Shown here: piece by piece, positions 63,280 to 63,873 of the stretch | Numbering within the stretch: position 1 is the stretch's first letter | How the letters are laid out: every line of letters starts with the position of its first letter | Position numbers and translations under genes: made by a program | Assembly: GCF_900167055.1 (NCBI RefSeq) | Contig: NZ_FUXP01000008.1 | Span: forward strand, 1-64,000 | Source of the DNA: Lysobacter spongiicola DSM 21749 | GTDB lineage: Bacteria > Pseudomonadota > Gammaproteobacteria > Xanthomonadales > Xanthomonadaceae | DNA: 64,000 nucleotides | Direction: 5' to 3' | The notes under the pieces: generated by a model | Databases searched by the model: none | The model's input: only the letters and a program-made list of their open reading frames with translations | Told to the model about the DNA's origin: nothing

Positions 63280-63430
63280 GTGATGGCTCCTCGTCAGTGG
63301 TCTATCGGGGTGTACAGCCCAGTACCAAGTGCGTCGCGGGGGGCGACCCCGCGACCAGCCGCCGGAGCAAGACGCTCCAGAACGGATGGGTGGAAACCCG
63401 ACGCGCCGTCATGTCGAACCGCTACCGCGG

Positions 63431-63469
63431 ACAAACAAAAACCCGATCCGCCGTTTGCGAACCGGGTTG
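63431..63469 (-). terminator. Terminator-like hairpin upstream of the histone-like gene
   Basis: Minus strand: AACCCG, a 17-nt loop and CGGGTT, continuing into TTTTG. The stem is only 6 bp and the loop is long, so the call is weaker than the other terminators here. It could be an attenuator in a long histone-gene leader. Confidence 0.42.
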
Positions 63470-63620
63470 CATGCATCGGGTTGTTCTGCGATCGCGTGGG
63501 GTACTCCGCCAGTGACGGGGAGGCCACCTCCACCTTGTCGACTGCAAGTGCGAAGGTTTGGCGTGTACGGCACGTTGTCGCGTTGGCTCTGCTCACTCGC
63601 TTCCGTTGGAAACGTCTGCT
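63437..63620 (-). ncRNA. Candidate small RNA, about 184 nt
   Basis: A transcript from the promoter just right of it to the hairpin just left would be roughly 184 nt. It contains local hairpins (GGAGG-TGG-CCTCC and GGTGG/CCACC-type pairings) and no plausible protein. I do not match it to 6S, tmRNA, RNase P or SRP RNA. The alternative is that it is the beginning of a 340-nt untranslated leader of the histone-like gene. Confidence 0.3.
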
Positions 63621-63626
63621 GGGCGA

Positions 63627-63655
63627 AACCTAATCACGGTTTTTACAGGTGTCAA
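63627..63655 (-). promoter_or_regulatory. Sigma-70 promoter, minus strand
   Basis: Consensus TTGACA (63,650-63,655), a 17-bp spacer and TAGGTT (63,627-63,632). Predicted +1 near 63,620. Confidence 0.6.
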
Positions 63656-63873
63656 CAATTACCGAAGCTGCATGCGATGCCTGATCACCGGTCGTCCCGA
63701 CATCGAGCAACGCATGTACTGCTGCCGATACGCGAACTCGCCTGCGATATGGACCCGATGGTTTTCTGAAGCCATCCCGCAAAGCCAAGCCGGGCGCGGG
63801 CTGCGGCATGCAGCGTCATGCCTGTGTTGGATCCAGCAACGAACGGCAGCGTTTCCGGCGACCCATACCGGAT

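Follow-up and report, generated by a model that had tools for sequence, protein, structure and literature searches.

A Candidate Translation-Coupled Attenuator in the 5′ Leader of an HC2-Type Histone H1-Like Gene of Xanthomonadaceae

Near the end of the window, the whole stretch of 64,000 nucleotides of Lysobacter spongiicola DSM 21749 analysed here (contig NZ_FUXP01000008.1, positions 1 to 64,000), the minus strand carries a promoter-to-terminator unit that precedes an HC2-type histone H1-like gene. Judged from its sequence, this unit is probably the 5′ leader of the HC2 gene, working as a pyrBI-like translation-coupled attenuator, a reading that we hold with moderate confidence and that draws on (i) conservation across the family, (ii) synteny with HC2, (iii) avoidance of stop codons through the terminator in a single reading frame opened by GTG, (iv) covariation in the terminator stem, and (v) the lack of a detectable second promoter ahead of HC2.

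Distribution and Genomic Context

Of 297 Xanthomonadaceae genomes searched by BLASTN, 251 contain the unit, whereas none of 24 genomes sampled from other families does. A covariance model recovers it in 10 of 20 genomes missed by BLASTN, one of the ten being marginal, and, when run across the order, returns one match per genome in Xanthomonadaceae only; an exact-pattern scan of named genomes places the unit in Xanthomonas, Stenotrophomonas, Lysobacter, Luteimonas, Pseudoxanthomonas, and Arenimonas, among others. Two records, L097 (titled Bacillus subtilis SK7B5) and L101 (Rhizobium sp. MAG), carry a Xanthomonadaceae leader together with HC2 and look mislabelled or contaminated. Elsewhere in the window, the Rfam scan detects a SAM riboswitch (RF00162; 32659−32780, minus strand, 78.7 bits).

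The downstream gene (62725−63279, minus strand) encodes a protein of 184 residues that matches the Pfam family HC2 (PF07382) above the cut-off, with an E value of 8.8e-17. The head-to-tail position upstream of a histone-like gene, reported in the original prediction, recurs in all 149 extracted loci, the following gene being of the HC2 type in each (assigned in 143 loci by the TGACGAGGA...ATG pattern, which in one of these, L038, picked an ATG that is not in frame with the Lys/Ala-rich gene, and in six by inspection), and the distance from unit to HC2 is 0.3−0.5 kb in all loci examined. Upstream of the unit and on the same strand lie gcvT and gcvH, the latter in 135 of 142 loci. At 63657−64000 (minus strand) and beyond, in locus L055, the interval of about 0.4 kb that separates gcvH from the HC2 promoter holds no evident gene, and a terminator-like hairpin follows gcvH at the window end.

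Promoter and Predicted Transcription Start

The promoter (63627−63655, minus strand) comprises TTGACA at 63655−63650, a 17-nt spacer, and TAGGTT at 63632−63627, as first described, and is kept across Xanthomonadaceae. It sits within the near-invariant block CGTGATTAGGTTTCGC, with a GC-rich stretch 3′ of the −10 box; in an alignment of 57 diverged species, no variation occurs in the −35 hexamer or in most of CGTGATTAGGTTTCGC. The block as a whole is conserved far beyond the level usual for promoters. Stringently controlled promoters display a GC-rich stretch after the −10 box, and control of the CGTGATTAGGTTTCGC promoter by ppGpp or by a dedicated regulator is possible. A scan of the genome for paralogues finds the 15-nt promoter core at this single place. 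Transcription is predicted to start at about 63620, as placed from the −10 box, giving a short 5′ UTR (63597−63620, minus strand) that reaches to the GTG and includes, in many species, an inverted repeat of the GCAG...CTGC type.

Between the terminator and the HC2 ATG, a position weight matrix finds no second promoter: the median score of the best site in that stretch is 3.7, the level of shuffled sequence, compared with 10.5 for the upstream promoter.

Terminator-Like Hairpin

The intrinsic-terminator-like hairpin AACCCGGTTCG...CGGATCGGGTT (63440−63468, minus strand) forms 12 bp from 63468 to 63440 and is followed by TTTGTTTGTC, with a T-rich tail at 63439−63430, in agreement with the hairpin plus T run of the original prediction. 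Across the family, 77% of 141 loci possess a hairpin of −12 kcal/mol or better with a T run, compared with 13% of shuffles, the former figure taking in some matches outside the expected place; the U-tract is poor or absent in about a quarter of the loci. The alignment across Xanthomonadaceae, suggested at the outset as a way to look for covarying stems, reveals them at the terminator, where the covariation score in 38 diverse stems reaches 0.394, compared with 0.187 for shuffled stems and no more than 0.10 for slid ones. Pairing cells make up 94.7% of these 38 aligned stems; since the stems were picked by folding, which favours pairing, and three poorly matching arms out of a total of 41 were omitted from the alignment, the contrasts with shuffled and slid stems outweigh the pairing percentage. 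In the 5′ part of the unit, RNAalifold predicts only a weak 6-bp hairpin, and an informal look at this fold discloses no evident antiterminator.

Taken from the L. spongiicola genome alone, the evidence for the promoter and the terminator is modest to weak: TAGGTT matches TATAAT at 3 of 6 positions, a strict promoter scan reports no promoter at the unit, and terminator-like sites over 2.5 kb number 7 against 2.9 expected, about twofold above shuffles. Such weak single-genome counts are what consensus-like sites arising by chance, and devoid of function, would give; this explanation is nevertheless refuted by the family-wide conservation, the covariation, and the stop avoidance, leaving it a negligible probability, and it is the family-wide conservation that makes the promoter-terminator unit more than a chance arrangement.

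The same two signals, both present and conserved, would also fit a standalone trans-acting sRNA of about 184 nt that merely adjoins HC2, as would the sequence conservation of the 5′ half of the unit and the many sRNAs, some of them derived from 5′ UTRs, of related bacteria (PMC7694677). On the other hand, the unit precedes HC2 in 149 of 149 loci and was never seen alone, HC2 would be left without a promoter signal of its own, stop avoidance in a single frame is unexpected for a non-coding RNA, and Rfam yields no match to the unit, either at the gathering score or at E values up to 10. The original prediction had offered a new sRNA or an attenuated leader. The second option is well supported, because HC2 always lies downstream, a second promoter signal is missing, and the HC2-proximal part of the leader is conserved and structured; the first is the weaker one, because HC2 accompanies the unit in every locus seen and a good U-tract is missing from about a quarter of the loci, and we consider it unlikely.

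Among catalogued RNAs, sX13 of Xanthomonas is, like the unit, a conserved RNA of Xanthomonadaceae; it comprises 115 nt with three C-rich loops and is always located downstream of polA (PMC3771888), so that identity with the unit, whose neighbours are gcvH and HC2, is ruled out by location. The unit was also compared with sRNA-Xoo1 to sRNA-Xoo8, of which sRNA-Xoo6, cloned as 188 nt and detected by blot at about 250 nt, could be assigned no position with respect to HC2 and may or may not correspond to the unit (PMC3039613). Searching papers for sequence stretches of the unit gave no match, and no publication describing the leader was found in the literature covered; the transcript may already be catalogued as an sRNA or a 5′ UTR, possibly in a dRNA-seq study of X. 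campestris pv. vesicatoria (10.1093/nar/gkr904).

Leader Reading Frame

The unit had been described as lacking a credible protein frame, a statement that has to be revised, since a same-strand frame of 100 codons (63294−63596, minus strand; GTG at 63596−63594, TGA at 63296−63294) covers it, spans the terminator, and is almost stop-free across the family. The GTG lies about 25 nt after the predicted transcription start, and no other triplet of the transcribed part is invariant across 57 diverged species; ATG or TTG is never seen in its place among the loci, and a few genomes have lost it (GTA in L136, GCG in L161, and also L196 and L198). No Shine-Dalgarno sequence is detected at this GTG, where the signal is weaker than at random leader positions. 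The frame remains open for 73−134 codons in most loci; with few exceptions, 12−58 nt separate its end from the HC2 ATG. In L016 and L025 it continues in frame into HC2, an N-terminally extended HC2 being possible there, and in L092 (Pseudoxanthomonas sacheonensis) and L190 it stops at codon 8.

A conserved start followed by an open frame of this length in most loci would be expected of a genuine small-protein gene, in operon with HC2 and encoding a fast-evolving protein. The constraint that a protein would impose is, however, not detected: substitutions are spread flatly over the three codon positions (459/431/435), as is the codon-position entropy (1.12/1.11/1.17), the synonymous fraction in the GTG frame is no higher than in the other frames, the frame register drifts freely relative to the hairpins and other conserved RNA features, and Pfam gives no match to the leader frame. 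Moreover, 120 of 141 indels are not multiples of three. A small protein is accordingly very unlikely, and from the aligned loci selection seems to keep the leader frame open and to preserve little else.

Stop Avoidance in the GTG Frame

From GTG+105 to the CTGGGC element, 141 loci contain 11 stops in the GTG frame, none of them before +240, compared with 79 and 37 in the other two frames. Because conserved motifs could make the frames unequal, three controls were run. In the first, the loci were grouped by the position of the GTG modulo 3 from the promoter and the first 200 nt were scanned; a GTG-frame stop occurs in 2 of 26, 0 of 36, and 0 of 79 loci of the three groups, compared with 99 of 282 for the other frames, the stop-poor frame thus shifting with the GTG register. 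After thinning to less than 70% identity, 0.7 of 59 loci have a GTG-frame stop compared with 51.9 of 118 in the other frames, with a median Fisher p of 4e-11 that serves as a guide rather than an exact value, the loci being related by descent.

In the second control, frames were stratified by their register to the terminator (37, 39, and 25 loci in the three registers). Around the terminator, a GTG-frame stop is present in 0 of 101 loci compared with 36 of 202 for the other frames, and counted as codons from −80 to +20 the figures are 0 of 3372 and 39 of 6728. Near hairpins I and II, further downstream, the register-stratified bias is weak, which confines the strong claim to the stretch through the terminator. 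The third control, based on 52 disjoint close pairs, gives 3 stop differences in the GTG frame compared with 37 and 13 in the others. An independent set is provided by seven distant loci with a GTG and an identified HC2 ATG, which came later from the covariance model and were not used in forming the idea; all seven (7/7) are stop-free until 60 nt before the ATG, and their GTG frame ends 16−49 nt before it.

The composition of the leader, measured in the first part of the frame as 32% C, 30% A, 26% G, and only 12% T, raises the question of Rho. Here the leader frame would shield a C-/A-rich leader from Rho and couple translation to HC2, the hairpin being incidental or a weak brake. Since the frame is mostly open downstream of the terminator as well, nearly to HC2, plain Rho protection also fits that property, and the poor U-tract of some genera points the same way, whereas a terminator stem that is kept with compensatory changes, and that is present in most loci, does not. 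We regard Rho shielding as a serious rival, albeit an improbable one, and it may operate together with attenuation.

HC2-Proximal Leader

Between the terminator and HC2, the leader comprises two hairpins and two invariant elements, all on the minus strand. Hairpin I (ATCCG...CGGCGG; 63359−63387), just 5′ of HC2, has 11 predicted pairs, 6 of which show compensatory changes in 45 species. Hairpin II (GTCGCGGGG/CCCCGCGAC; 63333−63355), recognized by eye in the same 45-species alignment, is formed in many genera by CGGGTCCGACTCCCG, and its stems vary with compensation, again as judged by eye. The sequence of hairpin II in many genera is GCGGG-TCCGACT-CCCGC, a stem of 5 bp closing a loop of 7 nt, similar to the T-loop of a tRNA; a role as a binding site or an autoregulatory element is possible. 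The CTGGGC element (63317−63322) is invariant in the 45 aligned species, and TGACGAGGA is invariant in 45 of 45 aligned sequences.

At TGACGAGGAG (63287−63296), the stop codon of the leader overlaps the HC2 Shine-Dalgarno region, whose duplex with the anti-Shine-Dalgarno sequence averages −8.3 kcal/mol; the TGA of this region is in the GTG frame in 76 of 125 loci. At 63287−63310 and in relatives, stops in two frames often stand just 5′ of the HC2 ribosome-binding site, for example GATAGACCACTGACG, so that a ribosome on the leader would tend to halt there in any frame.

Proposed Mechanism and Comparison with Known Leaders

From these features we infer that the leader is translated, that transcription terminates at the hairpin, and that ribosomes suppress this termination in response to a physiological signal, for which growth rate or translation capacity is our guess. 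RNA polymerase would start at about 63620, and a ribosome initiating at the GTG would trail it. Since the terminator hairpin opens about 128 nt into the frame, a closely trailing ribosome would cover it and the polymerase would proceed into HC2, the leader frame closing immediately ahead of the HC2 ribosome-binding site or with some overlap. Late, stalled, or failed translation would let the hairpin form, release an RNA of about 184 nt, and lower HC2; this terminated RNA may also act as an sRNA. The openness of the frame would count, and the peptide would not. Several observations speak against the attenuator, including the GTG that has no Shine-Dalgarno sequence and is never ATG or TTG, as a pure start codon might be, its loss in a few genomes, the codon-8 stops in L092 and L190, and the quarter or so of loci without a good U-tract.

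The closest precedent is pyrBI of Escherichia coli, whose terminator lies inside its leader gene, pyrL, and is suppressed by a ribosome close behind the polymerase (PMC4824070, PMC5021804); the terminators repressed in this way lie further than about 100 bp into a coding region (PMC4824070). With the hairpin 128 nt after the GTG, and given this precedent, HC2 probably requires prompt leader translation for its expression. In both systems an intrinsic terminator lies within the leader frame, which stops a short way ahead of the structural gene (PMC4824070, PMC5021804). They differ in that pyrBI controls pyrimidine synthesis, whereas the unit precedes a histone-like gene, and in the length of the leader frame, 135 bp in pyrBI and about 300 bp here; the HC2 leader is poor in U (12%) and has no UTP-sensing pause run before the terminator, so that pyrBI-style UTP sensing is unlikely. 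Neither peptide nor register is conserved family-wide in the HC2 leader, and no sequence relation between the two is known.

The trp, thr, and his leaders likewise combine a leader frame and a terminator upstream of a gene; there, however, the terminator follows the frame, whereas in the HC2 leader it lies inside, and the conserved regulatory codons of amino-acid attenuators are not found. In the tandem attenuators of the Salmonella mgtCBR leader, a long ORF-bearing leader is also present, and whether the coding region is transcribed is believed to depend on translation of the ORFs (PMC3641672); mgtCBR employs two short ORFs and specific stem-loops, as opposed to one long unconserved frame across the terminator. 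A bacterial H1-like histone under control at the RNA level is known from Chlamydia, where the sRNA IhtA acts on hctA translation (PMC3469542, PMC4355289), in trans, whereas the HC2 leader would act in cis on an HC2-type gene.

Significance

To our knowledge, little is known of how the level of H1-like histones is controlled outside Chlamydia. If the proposed attenuator is correct, the leader would provide the whole family with a compact control whose input is translation itself. Its ~150 diverged loci also constitute a clean natural data set in which a frame is kept open without sequence conservation. The open-frame signature could reveal other translation-coupled attenuators, which escape searches based on peptide conservation or on RNA families. 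We tentatively suggest that an open but unconserved frame lets ribosome−polymerase coupling set the amount of H1-like protein, which would perhaps tie translation capacity to nucleoid composition throughout the Xanthomonadaceae.
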